Positions 1,796-24,020 of a DNA stretch of 64,000 nt are shown here, piece by piece. Location: contig PLCA01000003.1 of the NCBI GenBank assembly GCA_003134685.1, positions 369,174 through 433,173 of the forward strand, read 5' to 3'. Origin of the DNA: Gemmatimonadota bacterium (GTDB taxonomy: Bacteria; Gemmatimonadota; Gemmatimonadetes; Gemmatimonadales; Gemmatimonadaceae). The translations under genes were made by a program, and so were the position numbers. Each line of letters starts with the position of its first letter. The stretch's first letter is position 1. The notes beneath the pieces were generated by a model. The model was not told the DNA's origin and searched no databases. It saw only the letters and a list, made by a program, of their open reading frames with translations.

Positions 1796-2154
1796 CTCGA
1801 GGGGGGCGAAGGAATCCGGTCGGAGCTTCGGCGAGCGCTCCGGCTCCACTCTCGACGCCCGTGCCTCCCCCTCGTAACACCGCCAGCAGCGCGCAAAACG
1901 GAGCCCCGCCGGCTGGGCCCTGAAGCGGTCACTAATCCCGTGGCCAGCAGCCCGACACGCGCCCCGCAACCGGATGCCGGCAAACTCCCAGCACGATTGC
2001 AAGCAACGCATCGTGACCAGCGGATCATTTCTTGATGTAGCGGCGCTGCGGGTTTCCCTGACTTGACCTGCATTCCGGGTTTCTGTCTTTTTCCGGATTG
2101 TGCAGGAGATTGGTAGACAGACGTCGCCGTACGAACGTCAACAACAGGAGTTCG
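1796..2154. other. Divergent intergenic region upstream of the Rieske gene
   Basis: About 360 bp between the minus-strand membrane-protein gene and the plus-strand electron-transfer cluster. Codon-like sequence continues on both strands, but no protein family is recognisable. TTGACC at 2063-2068 is a possible -35 box, followed after 17 bp by only a weak -10 (TCTTTT). The cluster promoter is therefore probably here but cannot be fixed by eye. Confidence 0.35.
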
Positions 2155-2709: not shown

Positions 2710-2713
2710 CAAA

Positions 2714-4572: not shown

Positions 4573-4634
4573 AAGGTCGGCGCGGACCCGCGCCGGCGAG
4601 GGGAATCCCTCAAGGAAATAGCACGGAGGGGATG

Positions 4635-5564
4635 ATGCGCATCGGTTCGAGACCGCTGTTCGGAATTGCCCTGCTGGCCCTGTGCGCCAGCGGCGCGGGC
4701 GGGCAGGTCACGGCCATGCCCCCCGCCGACTCGCTGCCGCCGGGATACGCGGGGTCAGCAAGCTGCCTGGACTGTCACGCAAAGGAACATGCGGTCTTTG
4801 CCGGCACCGTGAAGGGACGTCTGCTCGTCGGTCGCCCCCGCGACAAGCACGAGGCGCTCGGGTGCGAAAGCTGTCACGGCCCGGGCAAAGCTCACGAGCA
4901 ATCGGGAGGCGAAGAGCTTGGCCAGCTGATCACGTTCAGCCCGCGATCCAAGACGAGCGTCAAGGCGAGGGATGCCGTCTGCCTCAGCTGCCACGAGAAG
5001 ACTGCGCGCGTGATGTGGGCGGGAAGTGTGCACGAGACCCGGGACGTGGCATGCACGAGCTGCCACACGCTGATGCACTCGGTCTCCGACCGGGCAAACC
5101 TCCGGCGGGAGACTGCGCCCGCGACGTGCGGGCGATGTCACCAGCAGCGCGTGGCGCAGATGCTGCGCGCATCCCATATGCCGGTGGGCGAGGGAAAGAT
5201 GGACTGTACCTCGTGTCACAACCCGCACGGCTCACCGAATGAGAAACTGCTGATCGCGAGCTCGGTCAACGAGGTGTGCTTCGCCTGCCACGCCGAGAAA
5301 CGCGGGCCGTTCATGTGGCAGCATCCGCCAGTGATTGAAAGCTGCTCCAACTGTCACGATCCCCATGGCACCGCCCACGAGAAGCTCCTCAAGGTTCCCA
5401 AGCCACGTCTCTGCCAGCAGTGCCACGATCCCACGTCACATCCCACTCAGCCGCGTGGAATTACCGCCGTCGACGCGCGGTTCATTCAGGGACGCCAATG
5501 CGTCGACTGCCACTTCAACATTCACGGATCCAACCATCCATCGGGCAAATACTTCACCCGTTAG
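4635..5564 (+). CDS. DmsE/MtrA-family decaheme cytochrome c
   Basis: A 309-residue exported protein with exactly ten C-x-x-C-H sites spread over the whole mature chain, several in the C-x-x-C-H-[ND]-P-H-G form seen in DmsE, MtrA and PioA. The length is right for that family. A signal peptide of about 24 residues precedes it. ATG at 4632 is followed by a second ATG at 4635; the GGAGG at 4625-4629 is better spaced for 4635. In known systems this protein sits inside or against an MtrB-type porin and carries electrons across the outer membrane. Here the porin gene follows by 20 bp, which strongly supports that role. No MtrC-like outer-surface cytochrome is next to it. Confidence 0.95.
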   Translation: MRIGSRPLFGIALLALCASGAGGQVTAMPPADSLPPGYAGSASCLDCHAKEHAVFAGTVKGRLLVGRPRDKHEALGCESCHGPGKAHEQSGGEELGQLITFSPRSKTSVKARDAVCLSCHEKTARVMWAGSVHETRDVACTSCHTLMHSVSDRANLRRETAPATCGRCHQQRVAQMLRASHMPVGEGKMDCTSCHNPHGSPNEKLLIASSVNEVCFACHAEKRGPFMWQHPPVIESCSNCHDPHGTAHEKLLKVPKPRLCQQCHDPTSHPTQPRGITAVDARFIQGRQCVDCHFNIHGSNHPSGKYFTR

Positions 5565-5584
5565 CCCCTGACCGGGGAGCTGCC

Positions 5585-7975: not shown

Positions 7976-8137
7976 GGCAGCTACACCACCACTTGACGCT
8001 CGCCGACATGACGGGCGGAGCGTAACCGTCATCGGCGCGCCGGGGCCGGGCGGACGCTGAGCGCGCGATCACGCTTTATATTGGTTGTTCCGATCGTGCT
8101 CCGGACCGCACGTCACCTCCGCCCACAGCTTCATCCG

Positions 8138-8794
8138 ATGGTCAACGGCCAGCCCGATCGAGCGATCAACGTCATTGGTCTTGGCAAGCGCTTCGGCGCA
8201 CGATGGGTGCTGCGCGGAGTTTCGCTCGAAGTGCGGCGCGGCGAAGCCGTGGCGCTGCTGGGACCAAACGGCAGCGGGAAGAGCACGGTGCTGCGGATCC
8301 TCGGGACACTGCTCAACCCGAATTCCGGCTCCGCCTCTGTCAACGGGCTCGATGTCGTGCGCGACGCCAGCGGTGTACGCGGTCAGGTCGGATACCTGGC
8401 GCACACCCCCGGTCTCTACGACGACCTTACGGCACGCGAGAATCTGCGGTTCGCCGCAGACATGCTGGGGTTGCCATACGCGGCGGTAGAGAGCAGCCTC
8501 GAACGCGTTGGCTTGGCGCACGTAGCGGGTGACCGTGTGCGCGGATTTTCTGCTGGAATGCAGCGCCGGCTGGCGCTCGCCCGTCTCGTCCTGCAAGATC
8601 CCCGGGTTCTTCTGCTGGACGAGCCGTACAGCAATCTCGACGCCGATGGTGTCGAGCTCATGAACTCCGTGATCGCCGGCATCGTACGATCCGGCGGTGC
8701 GCTGCTCGTGGCGCTGCACGAGCTCGCCCCTGCCAAAGCGATGCTCGATCGCACGCTCACTCTCGTCGAAGGGCGTATCGAAGGGGCGCACTGA
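8138..8794 (+). CDS. ccmA: Heme exporter ATP-binding subunit CcmA
   Basis: A 218-residue ABC ATPase. The Walker A motif G-P-N-G-S-G-K-S-T lies near 42-50, the signature is F-S-A-G-M-Q-R-R-L-A-L-A-R, and Walker B is V-L-L-L-D-E-P. With CcmB and CcmC it releases holo-CcmE during System I cytochrome c maturation. I chose ATG at 8138; the frame also allows TTG at 8081, and no clear ribosome site separates the two. The stop overlaps the ccmB start by one base (TGATG). A TATATT at 8075-8080 is a possible -10 box for the ccm operon, but no matching -35 is evident. Confidence 0.92.
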   Translation: MVNGQPDRAINVIGLGKRFGARWVLRGVSLEVRRGEAVALLGPNGSGKSTVLRILGTLLNPNSGSASVNGLDVVRDASGVRGQVGYLAHTPGLYDDLTARENLRFAADMLGLPYAAVESSLERVGLAHVAGDRVRGFSAGMQRRLALARLVLQDPRVLLLDEPYSNLDADGVELMNSVIAGIVRSGGALLVALHELAPAKAMLDRTLTLVEGRIEGAH

Positions 8795-9480
8795 TGACGT
8801 GGCGCGATGATTGGCGCCGAGTGCGCGCCATCGCGAGAAAGGATGTCACCACTGAGCTCCGCGCCAAGGCGGGGTTCAACAGCGTAGCGTCGCTCGGCGT
8901 GACGATCCTTATTCTTCTCGGGCTGGCGCTCGGTCCCGATGCAGAAGCGCTGCGCAATGCGTCGGTCGGGGCGGTGTGGCTCGCCACGCTGTTCTCGGGC
9001 GTGCTCGCTTTCAATCGGTCCTTCCAGGTTGAGCTGGAGAGCGGTGCCCTCGAACCGCTGCTGCTGTATCCCGGGCCGCGCTGGACGATTTTTGCCGGAA
9101 AGCTGCTCGGCAACCTGATCTTTCTGACGCTGATGGTGGCCATCGTGGTGGCCGCTGGCATCGTGTTGTTCGGGGTGCAGATCCCCGCTGATTGGCCGTC
9201 GTTGATCGGCGTCCTGGCGCTCGGCGTCGTGGGGCTGGTAGTGCTGGGCACGTTCTACGCGTCGATGGCGAGTCGCAGCCGCGCGCGCGAAGTCCTGCTT
9301 CCGCTGCTGCTTTTTCCGATGCTGGTGCCGGTCCTGCTCGCCGCGACAACGGCATCAAAGGCGCTGCTGGGCGCGGACGTGATGCACGAAGCAGGCGCCT
9401 GGATTCGACTACTCGTGGCCTACGACCTAGTTTTCCTGATAGCCACGTTCATCGCGTTTGAACACGTCATTGAAGCCTGA
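8794..9480 (+). CDS. ccmB: Heme exporter membrane subunit CcmB
   Basis: A 228-residue inner-membrane protein with about six TM helices and the CcmB-type segments L-x-x-G-x-L-E-P-L-L-L-x-P in the first third and L-P-L-L-L-F-P-x-L-V-P-V-L near residue 170. It forms the CcmABCD complex that loads heme onto CcmE and releases it. The start codon overlaps the ccmA stop by one base. Length and helix number match the family. Confidence 0.93.
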   Translation: MTWRDDWRRVRAIARKDVTTELRAKAGFNSVASLGVTILILLGLALGPDAEALRNASVGAVWLATLFSGVLAFNRSFQVELESGALEPLLLYPGPRWTIFAGKLLGNLIFLTLMVAIVVAAGIVLFGVQIPADWPSLIGVLALGVVGLVVLGTFYASMASRSRAREVLLPLLLFPMLVPVLLAATTASKALLGADVMHEAGAWIRLLVAYDLVFLIATFIAFEHVIEA

Positions 9481-9487
9481 AGGCCAA

Positions 9488-10207
9488 TTGAACTCTTCCT
9501 CCGACCGTTTGCGGGACCCCAGCGCCGCGCGCCCGCCGCGCACCAGCATCTGGCTGGCGTTCGTCAGCATCGGCGCCGTGATCGTGGCGCAGACGTACGC
9601 CATCCTGACGTCTCCCGCCGAAGGCGACATGGGGCATCTGCAGAAAATCATGTACGTGCACGTCCCGGCAGCGTGGATGACGTTCCTCTCGTTCTTTGTC
9701 GTGTTCGCCTTCAGCGTGCGCTATCTGTGGCAACGCAGGGAAAACGACGACCTGCTCGCAGCTTCAGCGGCCGAAGTCGGTGCGACGTTCAACGGCCTGA
9801 CGCTGATGCTGGGAATGATCTGGGGGCGCCCTGCCTGGGGGGTATGGTGGGTATGGGACGCGCGCCTGACGTCCACGCTGGTGCTATTCCTGATCTTCGT
9901 CGGCTATCTTGCGCTTCGTGCGTTCACCGACGACACGCAACAGAAGGCGCGATGGAGCGCGGCGGTCGGCGCGATCGGCGCGCTCAACGTTCCGATCGTG
10001 TACATGTCGGTGAAGTGGTGGCGTACACTCCATCAGCCGCCGTCGAGCCCGGCCACCCTCGACCCCAGGTACACGATGGGGCTGCGGCTGAATGCGATCG
10101 CGCTGCTGCTGGTTATGATCTATTTCATCCGTAAGCGCTACGAGATCGCCCGTCTCGAGCGAGCGACCGAGCACATGGCCGAGGCGGCCGCAATGGGAGG
10201 CAAGTGA
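9488..10207 (+). CDS. ccmC: Heme handling protein CcmC (CcsA-related)
   Basis: A 239-residue six-TM protein with the tryptophan-rich periplasmic loop W-G-x-x-x-W-G-V-W-W-V-W-D-A-R-L-T-S that binds heme, and flanking conserved histidines in Y-V-H-V-P-A-A-W and W-W-R-T-L-H-Q-P. It presents heme to CcmE. I place the start at TTG 9488 because GAAGG at 9479-9483 is well spaced before it; in-frame TTGs at 9458 and 9470 lie within ccmB. Its stop overlaps the next small gene (GTGA). Confidence 0.93.
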   Translation: MNSSSDRLRDPSAARPPRTSIWLAFVSIGAVIVAQTYAILTSPAEGDMGHLQKIMYVHVPAAWMTFLSFFVVFAFSVRYLWQRRENDDLLAASAAEVGATFNGLTLMLGMIWGRPAWGVWWVWDARLTSTLVLFLIFVGYLALRAFTDDTQQKARWSAAVGAIGALNVPIVYMSVKWWRTLHQPPSSPATLDPRYTMGLRLNAIALLLVMIYFIRKRYEIARLERATEHMAEAAAMGGK

Positions 10208-10365
10208 CGACAGCTGCGTCGAATCTGAATTTCATCATTGCGGCGTACGCGGTGACGTGGATCGTCATTCTCGGATATCTATGGCGCCTTGTCCGAAAGG
10301 GTGGGCGCGCCCGCGCCGACTATGAGCGCATGGCGCAACAGCGCAGCGGGGAGAAGAGCCAATGA
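10204..10365 (+). CDS. ccmD: Small heme-exporter subunit CcmD
   Basis: A 53-residue protein translated from GTG at 10204, overlapping the ccmC stop, and ending at 10363-10365 where it overlaps the ccmE start. It has a short N-terminus, one TM helix (about residues 10-29, A-A-Y-A-V-T-W-I-V-I-L-G-Y-L-W) and a positively charged tail with R-x-D-Y-E-R, the usual CcmD plan. CcmD stabilises the CcmABC complex and is needed for release of holo-CcmE. Position and topology make the call; sequence conservation in this family is low. Confidence 0.85.
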   Translation: MTTAASNLNFIIAAYAVTWIVILGYLWRLVRKGGRARADYERMAQQRSGEKSQ

Positions 10366-10802
10366 AACGCGGGTGGATAATTGGAGGTGCGGCCGTCATC
10401 GTCGCGGTGTTCGCGTGGCTGCTGTTCGGCGGCCTGCAGAAGAACGTGGTGTTCTTCCTGACGCCAAAGGAACTGTTGGCGAAGGGCACCGACGGCGTCG
10501 GCGTGCCGGTGCGCCTCGGCGGACAGGTGAAGCCGGGCTCGGTGAAGTGGAACGCGCAGACGCTCGATCTGCGTTTCATTGTTACCGACGGCGCACGAGA
10601 GGTGCCGGTGCACTCGACTGGTGCTCCCCCGCAAATGTTCCGCGACGGCATGGGCGTCGTCGTCGAGGGACGCTTCGGTACGGCCGGAGTGTTCGAGGCA
10701 ACGGGCCTGATGGTGAAGCACTCGAACGAGTACCGTCCGCCCAAACCGGGCGAGGAAGCGCACGAGAAGTACAAGACGCTCATACAGCAGTCGAGCCAGT
10801 GA
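10362..10802 (+). CDS. ccmE: Periplasmic heme chaperone CcmE
   Basis: A 146-residue protein with an N-terminal TM anchor (about residues 5-23) and an OB-fold domain. The heme-attaching H120 and the following tyrosine lie in V-K-H-S-N-E-Y, matching the family H-x-x-x-Y motif. It carries heme covalently from CcmC to CcmF. ATG overlaps the ccmD stop, and its own stop overlaps the GTG of ccmF, so the whole block is translationally coupled. Confidence 0.94.
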   Translation: MKRGWIIGGAAVIVAVFAWLLFGGLQKNVVFFLTPKELLAKGTDGVGVPVRLGGQVKPGSVKWNAQTLDLRFIVTDGAREVPVHSTGAPPQMFRDGMGVVVEGRFGTAGVFEATGLMVKHSNEYRPPKPGEEAHEKYKTLIQQSSQ

Positions 10803-12808
10803 TCGACCTGCTCGCGCACAATGCGCTGTTGGTATCGCTGGCGGCGGTGGCATTCGGAGCAATCCTCACTCCCGTAACGATCCGCACTGGCAGGCGGGAG
10901 TGGCTTCAGCTGGTGTACGGCGCGGTCTACGCGAACTTCCTGCTGGTGAGCATCGCGGCGGTGTCGATGGTTGTGGCGCTCGTCACGCATGACTTCTCAG
11001 TGTCGTACGTGGCGCAGGTGGGCAGCCGCTCCACGCCACTGCTCTTCACAGTCATTTCGCTCTGGGGCGCACTCGAAGGCTCGATTCTCTTCTGGGCCTG
11101 GGTGCTGGGCCTCTACTCGGCAGCCGTCGTGGCGCTTCACCGTCGCCGCCTCGGAAATCTCGTTCCGTACGCGGTGATGACATTGCTCGCGGTCGCCGCG
11201 TTCTTCGCGATTCTGCTCGTGGGCCCCGCCGATCCGTTTCTGCCCGTGTTCCCGGTACCAGCCGACGGACCGGGTCCGAACACGTTGCTGCAGAACCACT
11301 ATCTCATGGCGGTTCACCCGCCGTTGCTGTACCTCGGCTACGTTGGAATGTCGGTGCCCTTCGCATTCGCCCTCGGCGCCATTTTCTCCAACGAGGCCGC
11401 ATCGAACGACTGGTCCATTCTTTCGCGGCGCTGGATGCTCACGTCCTGGGGATTTCTCTCCGCCGCGATCATCGCCGGCATGTGGTGGTCGTACGAGGTG
11501 CTCGGCTGGGGCGGCTACTGGGCGTGGGATCCGGTCGAGAACGCGTCGTTTCTTCCGTGGCTCACGGCGACAGCCTATCTCCATTCGGTGATGGTGCAGG
11601 AGCGGCGCAACATGCTCCGGCTGTGGACTCTGAACCTGTGCGTCGCGACGTTCGTGCTGACCATCCTCGGGACGTTCCTGACCCGCTCGGGAATCCTTTC
11701 GTCCGTCCACGCGTTCACGACGGGCGCGATCGGCTACTACTTTCTCGCGTTCATCGCGATCGTCCTCGTGACCACGCTGATGCTGGTTGCCGGCAACTCG
11801 GAACGCATTCAGACGAAGGGGAAACTGGGCGGCGCCGCGTCTCGCGAAACGGTGTTCCTGCTGAACAATCTCTTCCTCACCGCGGTAATGCTGACGGTGC
11901 TCGTCGGCACACTGTATCCGCTCGTCGCCGAAGCAGTGCGCGGCGTCAAAGTCAGCGTCGGGGTGCCGTTCTTCAACCGGATGGCACTCCCAGCGATGGT
12001 GTCGCTCCTCTTCCTCATGGGCGTGGGGCCCGCGCTTCCATGGGGCAGCACTACGTGGGCCGATGCTCGCAAGCGACTGTATCCACCGGGCATCGCCGCG
12101 ATGATCCTTGGCGCGATTGCGGTGATCGCGGGAGCACGCAGCGTCTACGCGATTCTCGCGTTCGCGTTCGTCGGGTACGCGGCGATGAGCAACGTGCGGG
12201 AGTTCTGGATCGGCATGCGCGCCCGGCACCGCGCGCACGGCGAGAGCTGGCCGACGGCACTCGTGCGACTGGTCGCCGGCAATCGCCGCCGCTACGGTGG
12301 ATACGTTGCGCACATTGGCGTGCTGTTGATCGCGCTGGGAATCACGGCATCGTCGACGTTTCGCTCAGAGCGCGAGGCGACGCTCACGCCGGGCCAGACG
12401 CTCACCGTCGCCGGCCATACGGTGCGACTGAAGAACCTGTGGGGCCGAGAGGAACCGCAGCGGTCGGTGATCGGCGCGACGATGGATGTAGTCGGCAAGA
12501 ACGGTGCAATCATTGGAACCATGGAACCGCGAATGAACTACTACCGGGTGTCGGACCAGCCGGTGCCGACGCCCGCCGTGCGCAGCAGTATTACGGGCGA
12601 CCTCTACGTCAATCTCATGGCCTTCGAATCGAGCGGCGCCAACGCGACGGTGAAGGTGATCGTCGAGCCATTCGTTCCGTGGATCTGGTTCGGCGGGCTA
12701 GTGATTGTGATCGGAGCGATCATCGGCCTGGGCTACGGCGGTCGGAGCGCGACCGCGCCTGCGCCCGCCACGAATCCTGCTCCGAGTATCGCGAGCGCGG
12801 ATTCATGA
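10799..12808 (+). CDS. ccmF: Cytochrome c heme lyase subunit CcmF
   Basis: A 669-residue polytopic protein with about 14-15 TM helices and the conserved heme-binding loop G-W-G-G-Y-W-A-W-D-P-V-E-N-A-S around residue 240. It ligates heme from CcmE to apocytochrome C-x-x-C-H motifs together with CcmH. GTG at 10799 overlaps the ccmE stop; the longer frame upstream is antisense-free read-through of ccmD/E and can be ignored. The window encodes cytochromes with some C-x4-C-H sites, so the substrate range of this lyase is of interest. Confidence 0.95.
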   Translation: MIDLLAHNALLVSLAAVAFGAILTPVTIRTGRREWLQLVYGAVYANFLLVSIAAVSMVVALVTHDFSVSYVAQVGSRSTPLLFTVISLWGALEGSILFWAWVLGLYSAAVVALHRRRLGNLVPYAVMTLLAVAAFFAILLVGPADPFLPVFPVPADGPGPNTLLQNHYLMAVHPPLLYLGYVGMSVPFAFALGAIFSNEAASNDWSILSRRWMLTSWGFLSAAIIAGMWWSYEVLGWGGYWAWDPVENASFLPWLTATAYLHSVMVQERRNMLRLWTLNLCVATFVLTILGTFLTRSGILSSVHAFTTGAIGYYFLAFIAIVLVTTLMLVAGNSERIQTKGKLGGAASRETVFLLNNLFLTAVMLTVLVGTLYPLVAEAVRGVKVSVGVPFFNRMALPAMVSLLFLMGVGPALPWGSTTWADARKRLYPPGIAAMILGAIAVIAGARSVYAILAFAFVGYAAMSNVREFWIGMRARHRAHGESWPTALVRLVAGNRRRYGGYVAHIGVLLIALGITASSTFRSEREATLTPGQTLTVAGHTVRLKNLWGREEPQRSVIGATMDVVGKNGAIIGTMEPRMNYYRVSDQPVPTPAVRSSITGDLYVNLMAFESSGANATVKVIVEPFVPWIWFGGLVIVIGAIIGLGYGGRSATAPAPATNPAPSIASADS

Positions 12809-13398
12809 ACTGGAAGCGCGCCGCTATCGCCGTGCTCGCCGCGGCGCCGCTCATTGCGCTGTTCGCCTATGGATTTTCCCGCGACCCGGCTGAGATTCCC
12901 TCTCCACTTCCAGGACACGCCGCACCGGAGTTCACGCTGGCGGTTTTCGCTCCCGGCGAGGGCCCGCTCATGCGGCCGCTCGGTGATACTGTCCGACTTG
13001 GCGCGCTCGTGGGCAAAGTGGTGGTCGTGAATTTCTGGGCGTCGTGGTGCGGGCCTTGTCGCGCCGAGCACGCCGGGCTGAGCGAGACGGCCCGGCAGTA
13101 CGTCGGCAAGCCAGTGCGGTTCATTGGTGTGCTTTACAACGACGGCGCAGCGGCGGCAAGCGACTGGATCACGCAGATGGGCGGCCAGAGCTACCCGGCC
13201 GTGATGGACCTCGGCTCAGTGACGGCCATCGACTATGGAGTCTACGGCGTGCCCGAGACATACATCGTGGACGCGAGCGGACGCATCGCGTACAAGTACG
13301 TGGGACCCATTCCGCCGAGCGTGTTGCGCCAATGGATTGATTCCTTGCTTCCGAATGCGACGGCCACCGGAATGATGCCGCTCGCCGTCGTCCGGTGA
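12805..13398 (+). CDS. ccmG: Thiol-disulfide reductase CcmG (DsbE)
   Basis: A 197-residue membrane-tethered thioredoxin-fold protein. It has an N-terminal TM helix (about residues 7-23), the active site W-C-G-P-C with cysteines near 82 and 85, and the cis-proline region Y-G-V-Y-G-V-P-E-T. It keeps the apocytochrome heme-site cysteines reduced for ligation. ATG at 12805 overlaps the ccmF stop and the GTG of ccmH overlaps its own stop. Confidence 0.94.
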   Translation: MNWKRAAIAVLAAAPLIALFAYGFSRDPAEIPSPLPGHAAPEFTLAVFAPGEGPLMRPLGDTVRLGALVGKVVVVNFWASWCGPCRAEHAGLSETARQYVGKPVRFIGVLYNDGAAAASDWITQMGGQSYPAVMDLGSVTAIDYGVYGVPETYIVDASGRIAYKYVGPIPPSVLRQWIDSLLPNATATGMMPLAVVR

Positions 13399-13838
13399 AA
13401 CGGCACGCGCTCGCGACGCTGGCTGTCGTGGCCGGTGCGCTGTGCGCTGCGCGGCCCGCGTCCGCACAAGGCGTCGAAGCGCGTTCACGCCCTTCGGTAG
13501 CGACGGCCGCGGATTCCGCGCTCGAGGCGCAAACGACGGCTGTCGCGTCGACACTCCGGTGCCCGGTGTGCCAGGGCGAATCCCTCCAGGACTCGCCGTC
13601 TGATCTCGCGCGGCAGATGCGGGCCGTCGTGCGTGACAAATTGCGTGCAGGCGAAACGCCGGACGAGGTCAGGGCCTATTTTGTCTCCAAGTACGGCGAG
13701 TGGATCCTCCTCGAGCCCACCATGACAGGCCTCAACATTCTGCTTTATTTTATTCCGGTTCTCCTCGTGATCGGAGGACTGGTGCTCGTCGCGTTTCTGG
13801 TGCGGCGGTGGACCGCACCAGAGTCAACCACACCTTAG
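13395..13838 (+). CDS. ccmH: Cytochrome c maturation protein CcmH (CycL-like)
   Basis: A 147-residue protein with a signal peptide, the L-R-C-P-V-C-Q motif (C56, C59) in a three-helix domain, a G-E-W-I-L-L-E-P end of that domain, and a C-terminal TM helix (about residues 115-137). It reduces or presents apocytochrome thiols to CcmF. GTG at 13395 overlaps ccmG. Only the short CcmH form is present; a separate TPR subunit (CcmI) may be supplied by the next gene. Confidence 0.94.
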   Translation: MKRHALATLAVVAGALCAARPASAQGVEARSRPSVATAADSALEAQTTAVASTLRCPVCQGESLQDSPSDLARQMRAVVRDKLRAGETPDEVRAYFVSKYGEWILLEPTMTGLNILLYFIPVLLVIGGLVLVAFLVRRWTAPESTTP

Positions 13839-14784: not shown

Positions 14785-16500
14785 ATGATTTCGCCCCCCA
14801 CGAGCCTACAACACAGCGCTATGCACGACCCGTCTGTCACTGCGCTTGTTTGCAACACCCTACGGCACGGAGTAGTTCCCACCCGTACCGCCCGCTCTTC
14901 TACACTACAAAACCAGGTGCGCGGGGCGCCATCGCGCGCACGAGCCTACGGTCTGCTGACAGCAGCGTTCATCACCGCTGTCTCGCTCGCCGGGTGTGCC
15001 AGCGACAAAATCGTCTTCCGTGATCGGGGCCCATTCAATCCCCCGCCTGACGCCGCCTCAGGGTTCCTTGGCTATTTCGACGCGGCGACGAAGCAGACGA
15101 CGTGCGGCAATTGCCACGTCGACTTCCAGGCCAGCTGGAAAGTGACCAAGCACGCCGGTGCCTATAACGCGGTGACCACAAGCTCGGTCAAGACTCCAGA
15201 GTGTTACAGCTGCCATTCGCTGACGGGCAACGGCAACGCTGCGAGCGGCACGGTGGCGGGACACGATAAAGTCGCGGACTCCGCGTATTTCGATGTCCAG
15301 TGCGAGAGTTGTCACGGCGCGGGCCTTCAACACGTTGAAGGCGTCGGCCAGGGAACGCTGATAAGGCCGCTCGCGAAACTGAGCATGGCCGGCACCGGCA
15401 ACTGCGGCGACTGCCATTCCGGAACGCACCAGCCGTTCGTGGAAGAGTGGAGTGCGTCACGACACGCGACCATAAACGCATCGCGCGTCTCGAACGCTAC
15501 GTGCGCCGGCTGCCACGAAGGCCGCGCGGCGCTCTTACGGTGGGGCGTCGATGTGAACTTCGTCGAGAAGGCCAATCCGACGGACTATCAGCCGGTGGCG
15601 GCCTGCGCCGTCTGCCACGATCCTCACGGTTCAGGCAACCCGAGCCAGCTGCGCTTTCCGGTGACATCCCAGGATCCCGACCAGAATCTCTGCATGAAAT
15701 GCCATAACCGGCGCAGCGAACCGGAGATTGGAACGAGCTCGCCTCATGCTCCGCAGGGCGCAATGCTGCTGGGGTTTGCCGGCTGGCGGCCGCCAGGCTT
15801 TACATACGACACTGCACGCATCTATGGGTCGCATGCAACGACGCTGAACCCGAAGCTCTGCGCCGGGTGCCACATCGCCAAGTTCACCGTGACCGACCCG
15901 GCGACCGGCGGCTTTGCGTTCCAGGCGACGGGTCACCTGATGCGGCCGATTCCGTGCCTCGACGCCGCGGGCAAGCCGACGGCCGACAAGACATGTCCGT
16001 ACACGGAAAGCGCCCGGTCGTGGCAGACATGCGCGGCTTCGGGCTGTCACGCCAACGCCGCGGTGGCTGTCTCGGCGTTCACAACCGTCCGCGCCCGGAT
16101 GAAGTTCTTCGCCGATCAACTCTGGGTGGACTCCAACGGCAGCGGCTCGCTCCAGGCGTCGCCGACTGACGGTGGTCTTCTGGCCCAGGTAAAAGCCTCG
16201 AGACCAACCGAATGGAGCAACACGGACCTCGTCATCACACCGGCCGAGGGCGCTGAATTCAACGCGCGGCTCTGCGGCGAGTTTGGCCAAACCAACGCCG
16301 ACAACTCGAAGGGCGTTCACAATCCGTTCCTGTGTGAGGCGTTGATGATCGCCACGATCAATTACATCACGACCTACTACGCATTGCCGGCTGCGTCACC
16401 TAGTGTTCAGGCCGGCATGACCGGTCCGATCGGCGGCAAGTTCAATCGTTCGATGCATGTTTCTCGCGCACCCCTGGTAGGTGAACCGATCTCGCAGTAA
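14785..16500 (+). CDS. Nine-heme c-type cytochrome lipoprotein
   Basis: Up to 571 residues with eight C-x-x-C-H sites and one C-x4-C-H (C-A-A-S-G-C-H) site. A hydrophobic run ending S-L-A-G-C (C71 in the longest frame) is a lipobox, so the mature protein should be lipid-anchored, probably at the outer membrane. The first seven hemes are clustered; the eighth follows a loop, and the C-terminal 150 residues have no heme site. The start is uncertain: ATG 14785, ATG 14821 and GTG 14920 are in frame, and GTG 14920 would give an ordinary 26-residue lipoprotein signal. It heads a cluster with two larger multiheme proteins and a porin. Confidence 0.88.
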   Translation: MISPPTSLQHSAMHDPSVTALVCNTLRHGVVPTRTARSSTLQNQVRGAPSRARAYGLLTAAFITAVSLAGCASDKIVFRDRGPFNPPPDAASGFLGYFDAATKQTTCGNCHVDFQASWKVTKHAGAYNAVTTSSVKTPECYSCHSLTGNGNAASGTVAGHDKVADSAYFDVQCESCHGAGLQHVEGVGQGTLIRPLAKLSMAGTGNCGDCHSGTHQPFVEEWSASRHATINASRVSNATCAGCHEGRAALLRWGVDVNFVEKANPTDYQPVAACAVCHDPHGSGNPSQLRFPVTSQDPDQNLCMKCHNRRSEPEIGTSSPHAPQGAMLLGFAGWRPPGFTYDTARIYGSHATTLNPKLCAGCHIAKFTVTDPATGGFAFQATGHLMRPIPCLDAAGKPTADKTCPYTESARSWQTCAASGCHANAAVAVSAFTTVRARMKFFADQLWVDSNGSGSLQASPTDGGLLAQVKASRPTEWSNTDLVITPAEGAEFNARLCGEFGQTNADNSKGVHNPFLCEALMIATINYITTYYALPAASPSVQAGMTGPIGGKFNRSMHVSRAPLVGEPISQ

Positions 16501-18549
16501 GTGGTGATCGGCATACAGTTCACTGGCGTCGTCCGCGTTCTGCGCTCGGCGGCGGCGCTTCAGCAGGCGCACGCCGCGCCCGCGGACTCGATCGTCGTCC
16601 AGTCGCCGCTCCCCGGCGGCATCGCACACTTCGTCCGGTTTCTGCTGAACACAGTCCCGCAGTGGGTGCAAATCGGCGGGGTTGTCGTCGGGGCCGCTGT
16701 TGCCGCGTTCATCCTCTGGTTCTTGTTCGTGCGGCGCGTTGCGATACGCGGTTGGCTGACCTCGCGCACGAGCGGCGTCAAGTTGGCGCTCGCGGCGATA
16801 GCCGTCGTGCTGATTACCGGCATCGCCGCCATGGGCACCGTGACCTGGAACTATACCCAGCACTCGAACGACTTCTGCGTCGGGTGTCACATCATGAACC
16901 CGGCGTTCCAGAAGTTCGGCGACGCGACCAACAAGCACGCCAAGCTATCGTGTCACGACTGCCATCAGCAGTCTCTGTACGCAAGCGCGCGGCAGGTTTA
17001 CCTGTGGGTCGCGGAGCGACCCGAGAAAATAGGCAAGCACGCCAAAGTGCCGAACAAGGTCTGCGAGAACTGCCACATCACGAAGGACACGGCAACCTGG
17101 CAACATGTCGCGTCGACAGCAGGACACCGCGTGCATCTGGAGTCGCACTCGAGCGCGCTCAAGAACATTCAGTGCATAACGTGTCACGGGGTCGAGCTGC
17201 ATCGGTTCGCGTCGGTGAACGAGACGTGCGGCCAGAGCGGCTGCCACAAGGCGAGCGAAACCAACATCGCGCTCGGCAAAATGGCGGAGCAGACGGACCT
17301 CCATTGCATCAGCTGCCACGCGTTCACGGCCAACGTTCCCTTACTCGCAACGCGTGACTCGGCACGGGGCACCCTGGTACCCGGGCAGACTGAGTGTCTC
17401 GCGTGCCACAAGATGCAAAAGGTTCTCGCAGACTTCGATGAAGCTAAGGACCCTCATGGCGGAAAGTGCGGAACCTGCCACAATCCGCACCTGCAGAAGA
17501 CGGCGGCGGCGGCGGTGAAGTCCTGCGCGACGGCGGGCTGTCACGCGAATTGGCGCGACACGCCCTTCCACGTTGGCGCGAGCCACAAGCAGATCGCCTC
17601 GCAGTGCCTCACCTGCCACGTACCGCATGCCGCGAGGGTTGACGCGAGCAATTGCGAAGGATGTCACCTGAGCGTGCGGAGCCATGGACGGTTGCGGCCG
17701 CCCCTTCCCTTCGACACGACCAAGGCGCTGCGACGCGTGGGCACGAGCACGGCTCCTCCCTCGCCCGATGCGGCCTATGCGGATTCCCGGCATTCGGTGA
17801 CGATAGCGTCGGTCCGCAGCAGCGGTCCGTCGGCGGAATCCGGCGATGATGCGACGCTCCTCGAGCGGGACGATGTACGTCCCGCGACGAACTACGCCGG
17901 CGCGCCTCTCTCCCGAGCGCCGCCCGCAACGGCCGACCCCTTTCCTCACGCGAGGCACGCAAAGCTTGCGTGCCTCGTCTGTCATGTGACTGGGACGGGG
18001 GTTGGCCTCCTCACGTTCAAGCCACCGCGCGGCTGCGCCATCTGCCACCATCAGGCGCCAACGTCGGGCAAGTGCGCGACGTGCCACGCGACGAGCGAGT
18101 ACACGGCCGTGAAGCACACGACGATGACGGTAACGGTGCCCGGCCACGACCCCCGTCCGCGGCCGGTAGACTTTTTTCACGCGGTGCACACCAAGCGCGC
18201 ATGCCTGGAGTGCCATACGACACCAGTGACGTTGGTGCCTTCGACGGCGCAGGCGCAGTGCAAGGATTGCCACAGCGACCACCACGCCGCCGGCCGTAAC
18301 TGCTCGGCGTGTCACACGATCGCCGAGCCCAAGTTTGCGCATCGGACCCTCGAGACCGCGCACCAGCGCTGCGACGCGTGCCACACTGCGACGACGATCG
18401 CGGAGCTGACGCCGACGCGAAGCTTCTGCAGTACCTGCCACGCGGCAAAGGCAAAGGGGCATTACGACCAGAAGGAATGCAGCGTCTGCCACTTCCTCGC
18501 CGAACCCGGCGTCTATCGCTCGAGACTCGTCACGTCGCGGCCACAATGA
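16501..18549 (+). CDS. Membrane-anchored 20-heme cytochrome c with NapC/NirT-like N-terminus
   Basis: A 682-residue protein with two predicted TM helices (about 55-77 and 93-116) and 20 heme sites: 18 C-x-x-C-H and two C-x4-C-H. The first pair after TM2 (F-C-V-G-C-H ... S-C-H-D-C-H) looks like the quinol-oxidising module of NapC/NirT/CymA. Eleven hemes follow in the N-terminal half, then a Pro/Ser-rich linker of about 85 residues with no heme, then nine more. I infer that it takes electrons from menaquinol and carries them across the periplasm in one chain. GTG 16501 directly follows the previous stop, and the next gene overlaps its own stop by four bases. Confidence 0.9.
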   Translation: MVIGIQFTGVVRVLRSAAALQQAHAAPADSIVVQSPLPGGIAHFVRFLLNTVPQWVQIGGVVVGAAVAAFILWFLFVRRVAIRGWLTSRTSGVKLALAAIAVVLITGIAAMGTVTWNYTQHSNDFCVGCHIMNPAFQKFGDATNKHAKLSCHDCHQQSLYASARQVYLWVAERPEKIGKHAKVPNKVCENCHITKDTATWQHVASTAGHRVHLESHSSALKNIQCITCHGVELHRFASVNETCGQSGCHKASETNIALGKMAEQTDLHCISCHAFTANVPLLATRDSARGTLVPGQTECLACHKMQKVLADFDEAKDPHGGKCGTCHNPHLQKTAAAAVKSCATAGCHANWRDTPFHVGASHKQIASQCLTCHVPHAARVDASNCEGCHLSVRSHGRLRPPLPFDTTKALRRVGTSTAPPSPDAAYADSRHSVTIASVRSSGPSAESGDDATLLERDDVRPATNYAGAPLSRAPPATADPFPHARHAKLACLVCHVTGTGVGLLTFKPPRGCAICHHQAPTSGKCATCHATSEYTAVKHTTMTVTVPGHDPRPRPVDFFHAVHTKRACLECHTTPVTLVPSTAQAQCKDCHSDHHAAGRNCSACHTIAEPKFAHRTLETAHQRCDACHTATTIAELTPTRSFCSTCHAAKAKGHYDQKECSVCHFLAEPGVYRSRLVTSRPQ

Positions 18550-20045
18550 CGCGCATCCGCGCTCAGATTGCCGCGTCAATTCCGGTTGCCGCGTTCATCA
18601 TGGTGGCGGGCGCCGCGCCAGTAGCGGCGCAGGATTACCGTGTTCGTGTCGACGCGAGCGTACAGACCGTTTCGTTTCGCGGCCTCGTCTCCGACAGCAT
18701 CCCGGTCGCGTTGGTGGTGCCCTCCCCCGACGGTGGACTGGAGACGCCCGATGGCCACGCGGTTCGATGCGGCGCGGCCGATTACTGCTTTTTCTTTTTG
18801 CCGGGTCCCGTGTTGCGCGCGGTCCCGGTGACGACTTCCGCGAGTCTGGTCATGTGGGGCTTGGGCGTCGAGGGGCTCGCTCTCCACGCGACCGGCCGCC
18901 TCGTGGGAGATCTCGGACCCGATCGAGTGTGGCCAGGCACAGTTCCGTCGGGGCAGCTCATCGAGGGGTATCTCGAGTACCAGCGCTCAGTTTTCATCGC
19001 GCGCGCCGGGCGCCAGCTCGTCACGTCGCGACTGGAGCCGGTCGGCTTCGACGGCGGTCTGCTGAGGGTTCGGTGGGACAAGGCGTCGCTCGATTTCACG
19101 GGCTACGGCGGCTGGGGTCTCGGACAGGCAGCCGCTATTTCGGCGGCCAGCCCGGCACTCAATCCTCTCGATGAGTGGCGACCGAGCAACAGGCAGCTCG
19201 TAGCGGGTGCCGAGGCGGCGCTGCGCGTGAGGGATGTCGACGTCCGCGCGGAATACCGGCGAGAGATCGACCCGCAGAACCATTACTTCGTCTCGGAGCG
19301 TACGGCGTTCTCGCTAGGCGCAACCGTCGCGGCATTTCGGGCAGCCGGCGGACTCGACTACAACATTGCGGAAGGACATCTGGGGAGTGCCGATTTCGCG
19401 CTCACCTATTTGCACTCGCGATTTTCGGTGACGGCAGGAGCGCGCCGTTACCATCCCTACTTCAGCCTGTGGACGCTGTGGGGCGCATTCAGCCCGGTGC
19501 CGTACAACGCGGTGAACGTTTCCGCGCAGTTTCGGCCGACCGATTGGTTGTCGGTGAACGGACGGGGGGAACGGTACCACTACGATGACGCGAATGTCTC
19601 CACGGCGATCGTGCCGCAGCTCGAGGACCGGGGATGGCGCTCGAGCGCCGGCGCCACCGCGACGCTCAATACCCGCTGGACACTCGACGGCGATTTCGGC
19701 CTCGAGCACGGACCCGGCGCCGCGGCGCGGTTTGCCGACGGCACTGTGACTTACACGCCCAACGAGAAGTTCTCGTTCGATGTATACGGTGGGTCCTTGG
19801 CCCGGCCGCTGGAGCTGCGCTATCTCGACGCAACGAGCCGCTGGATCGGTGGTCGCGCCGAGTGGCAGGTCACTTCGCAGCAACGCATCTGGAGCGACCT
19901 TGCTCTCGTCAGCGATGATCGCCAGAGGCCCGACCCGAGCGCATCGTCCCTGGATCAGTTCCGAATCCGGGCGGGACTGACTGTCGCTTTCGGCTCCGGC
20001 GCCGATCGCACGCCCTTGCCTCCGGCTCACAGGACCGGACAATGA
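18546..20045 (+). CDS. Outer-membrane beta-barrel porin partner of the multiheme cytochromes
   Basis: A 499-residue exported protein with a signal peptide of about 30 residues (cleavage near V-A-A-Q) and a long series of amphipathic beta-strands to the end, with aromatic girdle residues, as in outer-membrane barrels. It lacks the W-D-R-I-P-H motif of MtrB/PioB and is much shorter than that family. It lies between the 20-heme and 18-heme genes, with four-base overlaps on both sides. By analogy with the porins of Geobacter-type porin-cytochrome conduits it should sheathe a cytochrome in the outer membrane. That role is inferred from context only. Confidence 0.82.
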   Translation: MTRIRAQIAASIPVAAFIMVAGAAPVAAQDYRVRVDASVQTVSFRGLVSDSIPVALVVPSPDGGLETPDGHAVRCGAADYCFFFLPGPVLRAVPVTTSASLVMWGLGVEGLALHATGRLVGDLGPDRVWPGTVPSGQLIEGYLEYQRSVFIARAGRQLVTSRLEPVGFDGGLLRVRWDKASLDFTGYGGWGLGQAAAISAASPALNPLDEWRPSNRQLVAGAEAALRVRDVDVRAEYRREIDPQNHYFVSERTAFSLGATVAAFRAAGGLDYNIAEGHLGSADFALTYLHSRFSVTAGARRYHPYFSLWTLWGAFSPVPYNAVNVSAQFRPTDWLSVNGRGERYHYDDANVSTAIVPQLEDRGWRSSAGATATLNTRWTLDGDFGLEHGPGAAARFADGTVTYTPNEKFSFDVYGGSLARPLELRYLDATSRWIGGRAEWQVTSQQRIWSDLALVSDDRQRPDPSASSLDQFRIRAGLTVAFGSGADRTPLPPAHRTGQ

Positions 20046-21712
20046 GCCTGCTCACGCGTGTCGGCTCAGCGTTGGCAGCCGGCCTGCTCGCGGCGGGAGC
20101 ATTGGTCGCCGCGCCTCACGTGAGCCGCGCGCCGCAAGAATCCTTTCCACACGACAAACACGCCAGCTTGTTTCCGCTCTGTGTCACGTGCCACGCGGGT
20201 GTCGTGGAGCCGGGACAGCCGATGTGGCCTGACCCGGCACGCTGCGCATCGTGTCACGATGGTGTGGTGAAGCCACGAGTCGCGTGGACGCCGCGAACCG
20301 GACCGCGCGCGGGCAATCTGCGGTTCACTCACGATGGACATAGCCGCGCGGCGACAGCGGGACACCCGGCTGACAGCGCGCTGATTCAAGACTGCTCCGC
20401 GTGTCATAACGTGGCCGGCGCACCGCGGATGACCGTGCAGCCCGCCGTCGTCGCGCAATGCCTGGATTGTCACGGGCTCAAGGCGCCCCATGTGGATGTC
20501 GCGAGCGCAGCGTGCGCGACCTGTCACGTGCGACTGACAGACGCTCCGAGCCTGACCCGTGATGTCATCGCGCAATTCCCCAAGCCCCAGTCGCACAACG
20601 CGCCGGATTTCCTGCTCGGCGGCCACGGCATGGCCGCACGAGTCACGGGCGTGGCCTCGGGCCCGAACGCCATCGCGGCCAGCTGCGCCACGTGCCACTC
20701 GAGAAACCTGTGCATCACGTGTCACGTGAACGCTCCCGAGTCGCCCGTGATTCTCGCGCTGGCGCTCGACGAACGGACGCCGGCCTACGCGGCCTCGCGG
20801 CTGGTGCCGCCGAGCCATTCAGCGACAGGCTGGTTGCGCGCGCACGGCCTGGAGGCGCAGCGATCGGGCGCGACGTGCGCGACCTGTCACACACGCGAGA
20901 GCTGCATGAGCTGCCACGTCGGCGTGCCGTCGCGGGTGATTGCGGCGCTCCCGGCCGCCGGTCCGGGACGCGCAGTGGGCGCGCGGTTGTCACGCGCGAA
21001 ACCATCAAGTCACACAGTGGACTTCAGGGAACGGCACGGGGCGGAGGCAAACGCCCACCCGATGACATGCGCGAGCTGTCACGCGCGCGAGAGCTGCACG
21101 ACCTGCCATGTCGGCGCGTTGCCGCGCGTCGTGGCAGCGATGCCGCCCGGCGCCACCGGACGCGTGGCGGGCCTGCTATGGGCACGCATAAAACCATCGA
21201 GCCACACGCTGGAATTCAGGGAGGGACACGGCCCCATCGCAAGCGCCAGCCCCAGGACGTGCGAGACCTGCCACGAGCGATCGATGTGTCTCGAGTGTCA
21301 TCGCCCTGACGGTAGCCGGCAATCTCGTTATCACCCTCAGAACTTCATCACGCGTCATCCAAGCTCGGCCTACGCGCGCGAAGCGAATTGCAGCGATTGC
21401 CACAACCCGGCGCAGTTCTGTCAGAGCTGCCACCAGCGGGCGGGACTCGTCGCGACCGCGCGAATCGGTCAAAAGGGTTACCACGACGCGTTTCGCGGCT
21501 TCAGCCTGGGACACGGACAGGCAGCGCGGCAGAGTCTTGAATCGTGCGCGTCGTGCCACGCCGAGCGTGACTGCACTGCGTGCCATTCCGCAGTGGGCGC
21601 CGGCTTCCGATTCAACCCACACGGGCCCGACTTCAATGCGGCGCGCATGCGATCAAAGAACCCATCCGTGTGCATCGCGTGTCATGGCCGGGCGATACCA
21701 GGAGGCCCTTGA
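20042..21712 (+). CDS. 18-heme periplasmic/outer-membrane cytochrome c
   Basis: A 556-residue exported protein with 18 C-x-x-C-H sites. From the sixth heme on, sites come in tight pairs (C-x-x-C-H-x4/5-C-x-x-C-H), for example C-A-T-C-H-T-R-E-S-C-M-S-C-H. Several pairs lie in repeats of about 60 residues containing K-P-S-S-H-T-x-x-F-R-E-x-H-G, so the gene grew by internal duplication. A Sec signal peptide (about residues 1-25) is present with no lipobox. It is coupled to the porin gene upstream and could be the cytochrome held by it. I cannot match it to a named family. Confidence 0.9.
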   Translation: MSLLTRVGSALAAGLLAAGALVAAPHVSRAPQESFPHDKHASLFPLCVTCHAGVVEPGQPMWPDPARCASCHDGVVKPRVAWTPRTGPRAGNLRFTHDGHSRAATAGHPADSALIQDCSACHNVAGAPRMTVQPAVVAQCLDCHGLKAPHVDVASAACATCHVRLTDAPSLTRDVIAQFPKPQSHNAPDFLLGGHGMAARVTGVASGPNAIAASCATCHSRNLCITCHVNAPESPVILALALDERTPAYAASRLVPPSHSATGWLRAHGLEAQRSGATCATCHTRESCMSCHVGVPSRVIAALPAAGPGRAVGARLSRAKPSSHTVDFRERHGAEANAHPMTCASCHARESCTTCHVGALPRVVAAMPPGATGRVAGLLWARIKPSSHTLEFREGHGPIASASPRTCETCHERSMCLECHRPDGSRQSRYHPQNFITRHPSSAYAREANCSDCHNPAQFCQSCHQRAGLVATARIGQKGYHDAFRGFSLGHGQAARQSLESCASCHAERDCTACHSAVGAGFRFNPHGPDFNAARMRSKNPSVCIACHGRAIPGGP

Positions 21713-21714
21713 GC

Positions 21715-22197
21715 ATGGAAAACCATAGAACGCCTTTCATGAAGAGGATCGCAGTGTCTTCCCTGTGTTTCTGCCTCACGGCGGCGGCGGCGATCTGGGG
21801 GTGTGTCGGAAGCAAGCGTGAAGCGCCGAAGATCCCACTCGATCAAGCAAACCTCGCGAGCACCGCCAGAGGTGGAGTGACCACACCGAGCGCGATCGCG
21901 GGCGAGGCGAAAACGGCCCTCGACAGCGGCAACATGCTTTTTCGGGCAAAGGCGTATGACCGCGCGCTTGCGCAGTACCGTCGCTCCGCCAGGCTGGCGC
22001 CCACCGCCCTGGCTCCACTCTTCGGAATTCTGATGGTCACCGATGTGACGAAGGACGCTAAGCTCGCGGACAGCACGCGGTCGCGCATGCGCGAACTGGA
22101 TCCCGCGTCCGCGGACTCCTCGGCCGCAATGTCGCACGCCCAGATCGTTCACGAGCATTCCCACGCCCCGAAAACCCCGCCCGTGCCCCGGGCGTAG
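21715..22197 (+). CDS. Small lipoprotein with TPR-like repeat
   Basis: A 160-residue protein. ATG at 21715 is preceded by AGGAGG (21700-21705); a second ATG lies at 21739. The signal sequence ends in A-A-I-W-G-C, a lipobox-like site. The mature part contains a TPR-like segment (L-F-R-A-K-A-Y-D-R-A-L-A-Q-Y-R-R-S-A-R-L-A-P) and a His-rich end. It follows the 18-heme gene by two bases and so ends the second porin-cytochrome cluster. TPR lipoproteins often help assemble outer-membrane complexes; an assembly or stabilising role is a guess. Confidence 0.8.
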   Translation: MENHRTPFMKRIAVSSLCFCLTAAAAIWGCVGSKREAPKIPLDQANLASTARGGVTTPSAIAGEAKTALDSGNMLFRAKAYDRALAQYRRSARLAPTALAPLFGILMVTDVTKDAKLADSTRSRMRELDPASADSSAAMSHAQIVHEHSHAPKTPPVPRA

Positions 22198-22319: not shown

Positions 22320-24020
22320 ATGGCCGACGCCAGCATTTCAGCAATCGGGAAATACCGCATCATCGAGCTCGTAGGCGAGGGCGCGATGGGGGTGGTCTAC
22401 AGGGCGCACGATTCCGTCCTCGACCGCAACGTCGCGATCAAGGTGATGAATGAGTCGATCGCCAGGCAGGACGACCTGCGGAAGCGCTTCCTGCACGAGG
22501 CGCAGGCTGCCGCATCTCTCCAGCATCCCAACGTCGTGTGCATCTACGACCTTGGTGAATCGGATGGGCACCTCTACATCGCGATGGAATTCATCCAGGG
22601 GGTGGACCTGGAGCGACTGATCGAGTTGGCGGAGCCGCTCTCGCTGCAAGCCAGACTCGACATCATAATCGACGTTCTCACAGGGCTCTCGTTCGCGCAC
22701 AGGCGCGGCATCGTACATCGAGACATCAAACCGGCGAATATTCGCGTAGCGGAAGATGGGAGAGCGAAGATCATGGACTTCGGCGTCGCCCATCTCGCGT
22801 CTTCGAGCATGACCAGCACCGGGTCGATTCTGGGAACCCCGACCTACATGGCTCCGGAGCAGATCACCGAGGGAAAGACCAGCCCGGCTACCGATATCTT
22901 CGCGGTCGGTGGCGTCCTGTATCAGATCCTCACGATGATGAAGCCCTTCGAGGCTCCCACTCTACAGAACCTGTTCTTCAAAATCATCACCGAAACGCCG
23001 CGAAATATTACCGAGCTGATGCCCGGACTTCCTCCCGCCCTCGACCGCATCGTCCGGAAGGCCATGGCGAAGGAGCCAACGGATCGGTATGCGAGCGCGC
23101 TCGACATGGCGAATGACCTGACCAACGTGCGATCCAAGTTGAGCGGCCCTTCCTATCCGGCATCGGTTTCGTTGAGCGCTTCAGTTGCCAGTGCCATCGA
23201 GCAGTCCAGGACGAGCTCCCGGAAGCGGGTGAGAACGCTCGCCTTCGCAGGCGGGGGAGCGCTCGCCGTGGCCTCCTTGTTCGCGATCGCGTGGTCGCAA
23301 GGCTCGCGATCCGGTTCGCCAAAGCTGGAAGCCGCCGACAAGCCGGTGCCGTTAGCCACGCCAGCATCGCCTCAGGTGACTGCTGGGACTTCTTCGGCAG
23401 CGGCCACCCCCATTCGCGAAACTCAGCCGCCGTCCTCGATGCCGCGGCCTATCAAGCAGGAAAAACCCCGCGCTACCGTGCGCGACACGCGTGCTGGTAC
23501 CGTCGTCACCAAGGTCGCGTCCAAGCCGATTCAATCTCAGGTCACGACCACGGCGGCTCCGCTCACGCAGGCGCCGGCGCAAATTCCGAGTACCAGGCAG
23601 GAAGCATTGCCGGCGCCTCCTTCGGTCGTAACCGCGGCTGCAGTCGTCCCGGCGCCACCGAAGCAAGAGACAGCGCCGCCCCCGGTGGCGGCGCCAACTG
23701 CCGCTGACATCGCGCCTACGGTTGAAGCTTTCGCTCGCGCGATAGAGTCGAAGGACATCGGCGCCATCCGTCGTGTCTACCCGGGCCTGACATCGGATCA
23801 GCAGCGGCGCTTCGAGCAGTTCTTCCAGGGCGCGCGGACTATCAACGCCAGTTTCAAGGTGGCGAACGTTGCGGCTTCAGGCGCGTCGGCGGCGGACGCT
23901 CAACTTGTTGGAGCTTACGAGTATGTGACGACGGCGGGCAAAACAGAGCGCCAGCCAGTCACTTTTGCCGTGACCCTTGGGCACGACGGACGCGTGTGGC
24001 GACTCACGTCAATGCGCTGA
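22320..24020 (+). CDS. Transmembrane Ser/Thr protein kinase with C-terminal NTF2-like domain
   Basis: A 566-residue Hanks-type kinase. The Gly loop G-E-G-A-M-G-V-V-Y is at 19-27, the ATP-binding K near 41, the catalytic H-R-D-I-K-P-A-N at 133-140, D-F-G at 153-155 and G-T-P-T-Y-M-A-P-E at 172-180. A TM helix at about 305-325 is followed by a Pro/Ala/Thr-rich spacer of about 130 residues. The last ~105 residues resemble a SnoaL/NTF2-like fold, starting at A-V-E-A-F-A-R-A-I-E-S-K-D and ending in W-R-L-T-S-M-R. This would sit in the periplasm and could sense a ligand. The substrate is unknown. Confidence 0.92.
   Translation: MADASISAIGKYRIIELVGEGAMGVVYRAHDSVLDRNVAIKVMNESIARQDDLRKRFLHEAQAAASLQHPNVVCIYDLGESDGHLYIAMEFIQGVDLERLIELAEPLSLQARLDIIIDVLTGLSFAHRRGIVHRDIKPANIRVAEDGRAKIMDFGVAHLASSSMTSTGSILGTPTYMAPEQITEGKTSPATDIFAVGGVLYQILTMMKPFEAPTLQNLFFKIITETPRNITELMPGLPPALDRIVRKAMAKEPTDRYASALDMANDLTNVRSKLSGPSYPASVSLSASVASAIEQSRTSSRKRVRTLAFAGGGALAVASLFAIAWSQGSRSGSPKLEAADKPVPLATPASPQVTAGTSSAAATPIRETQPPSSMPRPIKQEKPRATVRDTRAGTVVTKVASKPIQSQVTTTAAPLTQAPAQIPSTRQEALPAPPSVVTAAAVVPAPPKQETAPPPVAAPTAADIAPTVEAFARAIESKDIGAIRRVYPGLTSDQQRRFEQFFQGARTINASFKVANVAASGASAADAQLVGAYEYVTTAGKTERQPVTFAVTLGHDGRVWRLTSMR

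Follow-up and report, generated by a model that had tools for sequence, protein, structure and literature searches.

A candidate porin-cytochrome conduit with a barrel unlike MtrB in Gemmatimonadota

Genes and heme sites of the locus

The window analysed here is a stretch of 64,000 nucleotides from a Gemmatimonadota genome (assembly of 3.63 Mb, 98% complete), covering 369174-433173 of its contig, and the coordinates given below refer to the window and, for the features of the module, to its forward (+) strand. Five genes on this strand, which we call A to E, follow each other in series between positions 14785 and 22197. The original prediction, which described five same-strand genes, most of them with stop/start overlaps, is confirmed: the start codon of B comes immediately after the stop codon of A, and four bases (ATGA) are shared at both the B/C and the C/D junctions. 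Its count of 47 heme sites also agrees with the motifs found, namely 9 in A, 20 in B and 18 in D (44 CXXCH and three CX4CH). After residue shuffling each protein retains 0.03-0.19 CXXCH, where A, B and D actually have 8, 18 and 18, respectively. The module has ccm genes as neighbours in the window (8794-13838), as in several relatives, and a serine/threonine kinase-like gene lies directly 3' of it (22320-24020), being kept in a close relative (L032, 79% identity).

The first gene, A (14785..16500; 8 CXXCH and one CX4CH), encodes a nine-heme lipoprotein related to OcwA, which makes it a candidate surface oxidoreductase. Translation likely starts at the GTG at 14917 or at an upstream ATG, and is followed by a lipobox (LAGC, Cys codon 14995-14997) whose Cys is invariant in 45 homologues, with the strict lipobox pattern present in 27 of the 45. 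All nine heme motifs are 100% conserved in these aligned homologues (except for the first Cys of the fifth motif, at 98%), and nine non-motif His, candidate distal ligands equal in number to the hemes, are conserved at 96-100%. Compared with the PDB, the profile of A matches the multiheme cytochrome 6qvm (E=4e-18) and OcwA (6i5b, E=1.1e-15), the similarity to the latter being collinear, with matching pieces that follow one another alike in both proteins. OcwA is a nine-heme cell-surface terminal reductase of the NrfA/HAO type from Thermincola potens, which has two open hemes under His-His motifs and reduces nitrite, slowly (PMC6703420). At the aligned positions of these two motifs A keeps one His each (H171 and H277, 96% conserved), and it lacks the CXXCK heme of NrfA. 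By its nine hemes and its homology, A can be classed with the OcwA-type nonaheme cytochromes, with the difference that the host of OcwA is a Gram-positive without an outer membrane, whereas the gene of A, a lipoprotein, sits in a cluster with a barrel. The earlier proposal of a surface lipoprotein fits A, refined to one that resembles OcwA and not MtrC or OmcB.

B (16501..18549; 18 CXXCH and two CX4CH) encodes a 20-heme membrane protein in which two hydrophobic stretches, predicted to be transmembrane segments (residues ~55-77 and ~95-115; 16663..16845), precede the first heme. The hemes are grouped in an N-terminal half of 11 (16876..17667) and a C-terminal half of 9 (17947..18492), with a linker of ~95 residues between them, and all 20 motifs are 100% conserved in 35 aligned homologues. 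Behind the hydrophobic segments, the first motif reads CVGCHIM as in NrfH/NapC, M132 is conserved in 91% of the aligned homologues, and profile positions 77-140 match NrfH in the PDB (E=3.8e-12). The N-terminus can accordingly be assigned to the NapC/NrfH-type quinol dehydrogenase domains, in line with the NapC-like inner-membrane anchor that had been predicted, and the score against the NCBIfam NrfH model (34 bits, under the cut-off of 134) indicates that B is not a full-length NrfH. In many loci the 9-heme half alone adjoins the barrel gene, several of these loci also carrying Rieske and cytochrome b genes, and in three (L098, L112 and L143) the 11-heme half is encoded by a separate gene; because the halves are separable and such genes lie alongside, the quinone-side module looks exchangeable.

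C (18546..20045) encodes a protein of 499 residues with a signal peptide and no heme motif. It has no Pfam or NCBIfam family above cut-off, and its profile finds no match among PDB sequences. The AlphaFold2 model (built with 74 homologues; pLDDT 88, pTM 0.81) is an outer-membrane beta-barrel of ~22 strands, when residues 80-104 are counted as one strand; long and short loops then alternate, as in outer-membrane proteins. Since the first strand begins right after the signal peptide, the barrel would have no plug. The nearest solved folds are 22-strand TonB-dependent receptors (PirA: Z 20.4, 353 residues aligned, rmsd 3.9), which sustains the earlier claim that this protein is a transmembrane barrel. 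The further claim, that the barrel is not MtrB-like, is borne out by sequence: C has no match to PF11854 (MtrB_PioB) at E<=1, whereas the MtrB gene upstream in the window scores 270 bits, and hhalign gives a probability of 0.7% between the C family and that MtrB. On these results we rejected C as a relative of MtrB, which does appear among the Foldseek matches of the model, with a modest score. Two features are unusually conserved in the predicted extracellular loops across the 74 sequences: an invariant Cys75/Cys81 pair in the first loop (18768..18788) and a near-invariant loop, PxFxLWTIWGAFSPV (residues ~304-318; 19452..19502), in which P304, F306, T310, W312 and F315 are invariant and the pLDDT is low at 310-314. 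The conservation of the latter suggests a bound partner, making it a candidate docking or pore loop.

D (20042..21712; 18 CXXCH) encodes an exported cytochrome, a candidate wire through the barrel, whose signal peptide has no lipobox (0 of 60 homologues). In the 60 aligned homologues 16 of the 18 motifs are 100% conserved, and this core has 15 conserved non-motif His and one Met for its 16 hemes, while the extra two hemes (343 and 352) are present in only 3%. The protein consists of an N-terminal five-heme part followed by two-heme repeats, with four units of the pattern SHx(n)HGx(n)CxxCHx4CxxCH (20591-20725, 20813-20917, 21008-21109 and 21200-21301; overall 20591..21301), the third of which carries the extra hemes. 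Because this pair is a repeat unit found in so few homologues, the family core amounts to 9+20+16 = 45 hemes, and the predicted 47 describe this locus but not the family. A 12-heme relative of D (family f11), encoded beside a distant barrel and an 11-heme lipoprotein, has one repeat unit; the numbers (one unit with 12 hemes, three with 16, four with 18) fit together with a lengthening of D by two-heme repeats. The AlphaFold2 model of D is mediocre (pLDDT 69.5), so that its one weak fold match, to the multiheme subunit of Alternative Complex III (Z 3.1), is uninformative. Taking the three cytochromes together, the full conservation of these motifs and a number of conserved non-motif His or Met close to that of the hemes are strong evidence from the alignments that all conserved heme sites, in A, B and the core of D, are used.

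The last gene, E (21715..22197, with its start at 21715 or 21739), encodes a small lipoprotein. It had been described as a TPR lipoprotein and the fifth member of the system; the lipoprotein signal is present, but the one, weak TPR match lies under the Pfam cut-off, and relatives of E occur at only 11 of 80 loci, outside the conserved module, which ruled it out as an essential part.

Occurrence and gene order in Gemmatimonadota

Searching with the C sequence, we detected relatives in 84 of 298 Gemmatimonadota genomes. With a profile of the 74 homologues, the barrel was found in 121 of 395 Gemmatimonadota genomes and in 69 of 138 genera, 4 of the 121 being partial, weak matches that all belong to one distant family. 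Neighbourhoods were compared in 40 genomes and in 80 loci from a contig scan (two sets which overlap), and the A-B-C-D order recurs repeatedly across them, so that the predicted arrangement extends over the phylum, usually as a 9-heme lipoprotein, a 20-heme membrane protein, the barrel and a 16-heme exported protein. D lies directly downstream of C in all 70 testable loci. The prevailing heme counts are 16 for D (57 of 66), 9 for A in the loci with A upstream (34 of 37) and 20 for B where it is adjacent (24 of 34). Additionally, the tree distances of C and D agree best of all gene pairs (r=0.89).

A and B are missing from some loci, whereas C and D were never separated in the 70, and this is not what an enzyme-centred operon would predict. 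The observation bears on a reading without any wire across the outer membrane, according to which A would be a periplasmic oxyanion reductase of the NrfA/HAO superfamily, D an electron store and C a substrate channel. Such a reading would suit the place of A in the OcwA/NrfA/HAO group, with OcwA acting slowly on nitrite (PMC6703420), and the transport barrels that are the closest solved folds of C; besides the gene order, the invariant lipoprotein Cys of A, its lack of the NrfA CXXCK heme and the low number of residues per heme in D (~31), which suits a wire, speak against it, and we consider it very unlikely.

The 80 loci lie in Gemmatimonadota records, except for two untitled records and two with doubtful titles; the apparent absence outside the phylum was judged from one contig scan with a single peptide pattern, and a plasmid search with C and D gave no match. 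Two records (L080 and L099) are titled Candidatus Kuenenia stuttgartiensis. A spread to Planctomycetes on this basis was rejected, as the matching genome groups in the family of the window, and the title is probably wrong.

Within its genus, the module is present in 4 of 13 sampled members. The type seen in the window occurs in a few genera of its own family and groups within family f2 in the trees of A, B, C and D (with support values from FastTree only), other members of the window's family having a distant version, often directly behind ccm genes. These trees and the patchy occurrence in the genus are most simply read as a transfer of the whole module within the phylum.

Several loci have variant layouts. 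In family f11, which lies outside the class of the window and whose barrel is distant from C (E about 1e-12), three loci (L159, L160 and L162) hold a barrel of ~410-427 aa with an 11-12-heme relative of D and a 10-11-heme lipoprotein; in L160 one longer open frame of the lipoprotein contains 24 motifs, and cytochrome b/Rieske-like genes and nine-heme genes are close by. Four other loci (L106, L130, L146 and L049) have a 19-heme protein of ~950-1000 aa directly upstream of the barrel, in some cases together with an 11-heme protein, which is a possible alternative surface component. In L104, L105, L129 and L151 the relatives of D are short (9-10 hemes, ~300 aa) and separate genes for four-heme proteins come after them, which may represent a wire that has been split or shortened. 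L086 encodes, downstream of the module (7250-11815 of that locus), two proteins very rich in hemes, one with 23 motifs and one with at least 32.

Relation to described conduits

With a predicted barrel encoded together with an exported multiheme cytochrome, the module would belong to the porin-cytochrome class. That it fits no named conduit, as originally proposed, agrees with the searches: neither C nor D matches an NCBIfam model, and the heme counts are unlike those of Mtr/Pio, OmbB-OmaB-OmcB, Ext, Oet, Uet and PCC3/PCC4, the comparison with Ext, Oet and Omb covering their described heme counts and order.

MtrCAB, PioAB and MtoAB share with the module a barrel and an exported multiheme cytochrome (in Mtr also a surface multiheme lipoprotein), as well as the inferred function. 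They differ in the barrel, that of A-D being unrelated to PF11854 and having ~22 strands instead of 26, and in the cytochromes, since D has 16-18 hemes, the surface protein A is OcwA-like, and D gives no match to the decaheme DmsE/MtrA family, its similarity to the MtrA of the window being a local one over 68 columns. The family tests rule out an MtrAB/PioAB identity. This MtrA (DmsE family, 251 bits) and an MtrB (PF11854, 270 bits; the only PF11854 match in the genome) form a genuine pair upstream of A-E (4092-7975), flanked by Rieske/cytochrome b genes (2098-4216) on one side and by the ccm genes on the other.

The OmbB-OmaB-OmcB (Pcc), ExtABCD, ExtEFG, ExtHIJKL and OetABI systems of Geobacter and relatives also combine a non-MtrB barrel with periplasmic and surface cytochromes, and the barrels and periplasmic cytochromes of Pcc likewise appear to co-evolve (PMC4245776). 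Where Pcc has an 8-heme periplasmic and a 12-heme outer-membrane cytochrome (PMC4245776), the module has 16-18 hemes in D and 9 in A. These numbers also differ from those of ExtACD (12/5/12) and ExtFG (5/12), as the heme numbers and order of Ext, Oet and Uet do in general (PMC6148476, PMC10553843, PMC10734462), and the Pcc, Ext and Oet clusters are described without an inner-membrane quinol module. A more distant kinship deserves consideration, in which A-D would be a remote branch of a described conduit (Geobacter Ext, Oet, OmbB-OmaB-OmcB, PCC3 or Uet) with a barrel diverged past recognition. The distant relatives in the phylum, made of a barrel, a 12-heme D relative and an 11-heme lipoprotein, are reminiscent of Ext/Oet layouts, and the ExtKL model, the one such model seen in NCBIfam, matches 7 of 45 A members, weakly. 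The same model matches neither C nor D, however, and the lack of any NCBIfam match for these two, the differing heme counts and order, the near confinement of the 80 loci to Gemmatimonadota records and a barrel without sequence match in the PDB make this descent distinctly unlikely.

PCC3, PCC4 and Uet, known from iron oxidizers, resemble the module in that their large periplasmic cytochrome is believed to bridge this compartment and the cluster also encodes an inner-membrane partner. In PCC3 of Gallionellaceae the periplasmic cytochrome has 21-27 hemes, the extracellular one at least 10, and the inner-membrane protein is a five-helix one with predicted b-heme binding (PMC5566968). No such five-helix protein is encoded among A-E: the anchor of A-D, in B, is NrfH-like and fused into a 20-heme chain, with two hydrophobic segments followed by hemes.

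None of the open-access papers that we found describes the module, those that link porin-cytochrome systems with Gemmatimonadota being few. A 2024 survey reports many unnamed cytochrome clusters, among which A-D may be included (PMC11475568).

Proposed route and direction of electron flow

Based on the gene order, the heme conservation and the barrel model, we infer that A-D are probably a phylum-specific porin-cytochrome conduit which spans the envelope and most likely exports electrons. In this conduit, electrons from the quinol pool would be taken by the NrfH-like 11-heme half of B, anchored in the inner membrane, and handed on into the periplasm by its 9-heme half. D, partly threaded through barrel C, would then carry them over the outer membrane via its 16-18 hemes, and A, as an OcwA-type lipoprotein at the surface, would pass them to a mineral, a shuttle, an electrode or a small oxyanion. 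The four proteins would form one complex, with D sitting in C, A facing outward and the usual flow outward. The quinone-to-surface route put forward in the original prediction fits each component and the phylum-wide synteny; its details now read differently, in that the module extends over the phylum, its quinone side looks exchangeable and the TPR lipoprotein is not an essential part. Against a conduit of this kind stand the 22-strand barrel, narrower than the 26 strands of MtrB, the mediocre model of D and the strict lipobox in only 27 of 45 A sequences.

The direction of flow is argued from three observations, which together make export likelier than uptake: the quinol-dehydrogenase-type domain of B, the kinship of A with a reductase, and RuBisCO, which was not found in the genome and is the one carbon fixation route searched. 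With heme-copper oxidases present, the RuBisCO result fits a heterotroph that exports electrons. The same conduit could run inward: a donor such as Fe(II) or Mn(II) would feed A, and D and B would carry the electrons on to a bc-type complex or the quinone pool. Bidirectional operation is considered possible for Mtr-type conduits (PMC10734462), Rieske/cytochrome b genes occur at 14 of the 80 loci and the oxidases are possible sinks, but an NrfH-like quinol-dehydrogenase domain in B, an A akin to a terminal reductase and the RuBisCO result point the other way, and we regard habitual inward flow as unlikely. Outward flow through A-D therefore remains our preferred reading, and, given that a genuine Mtr pair is also present, the electron export of this genome need not run through A-D.

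More tentatively, A-D may be a separately evolved, phylum-level conduit family with its own barrel, in which 20, 16-18 and 9 hemes would form one continuous chain without soluble carriers. Such a family would lengthen its wire by two hemes at a time and exchange its quinone side, and its OcwA/NrfA-type surface end may reduce small oxyanions outside the cell besides minerals.

Little capacity for extracellular electron transfer has been described in Gemmatimonadota, which are common in soil. Should the system work as proposed here, roughly one third of the species sampled could trade electrons with minerals, shuttles or neighbours, and C with D would serve as a sequence marker missed by the curated families searched. 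The module also raises the questions of whether a ~22-strand barrel can hold a heme wire and of how a reductase of the OcwA type, which is known from cells that lack an outer membrane, joined an outer-membrane barrel, and it offers a test case for the lengthening of a wire by two-heme units.

Upstream in the window, a cytochrome b protein carrying a cytochrome c domain at its C-terminus (2714-4216) is encoded beside a Rieske protein, and this pair is a possible quinol module for either conduit, A-D or Mtr. In L032 the same cytochrome b/Rieske pair follows D, E and the kinase gene on their downstream side.
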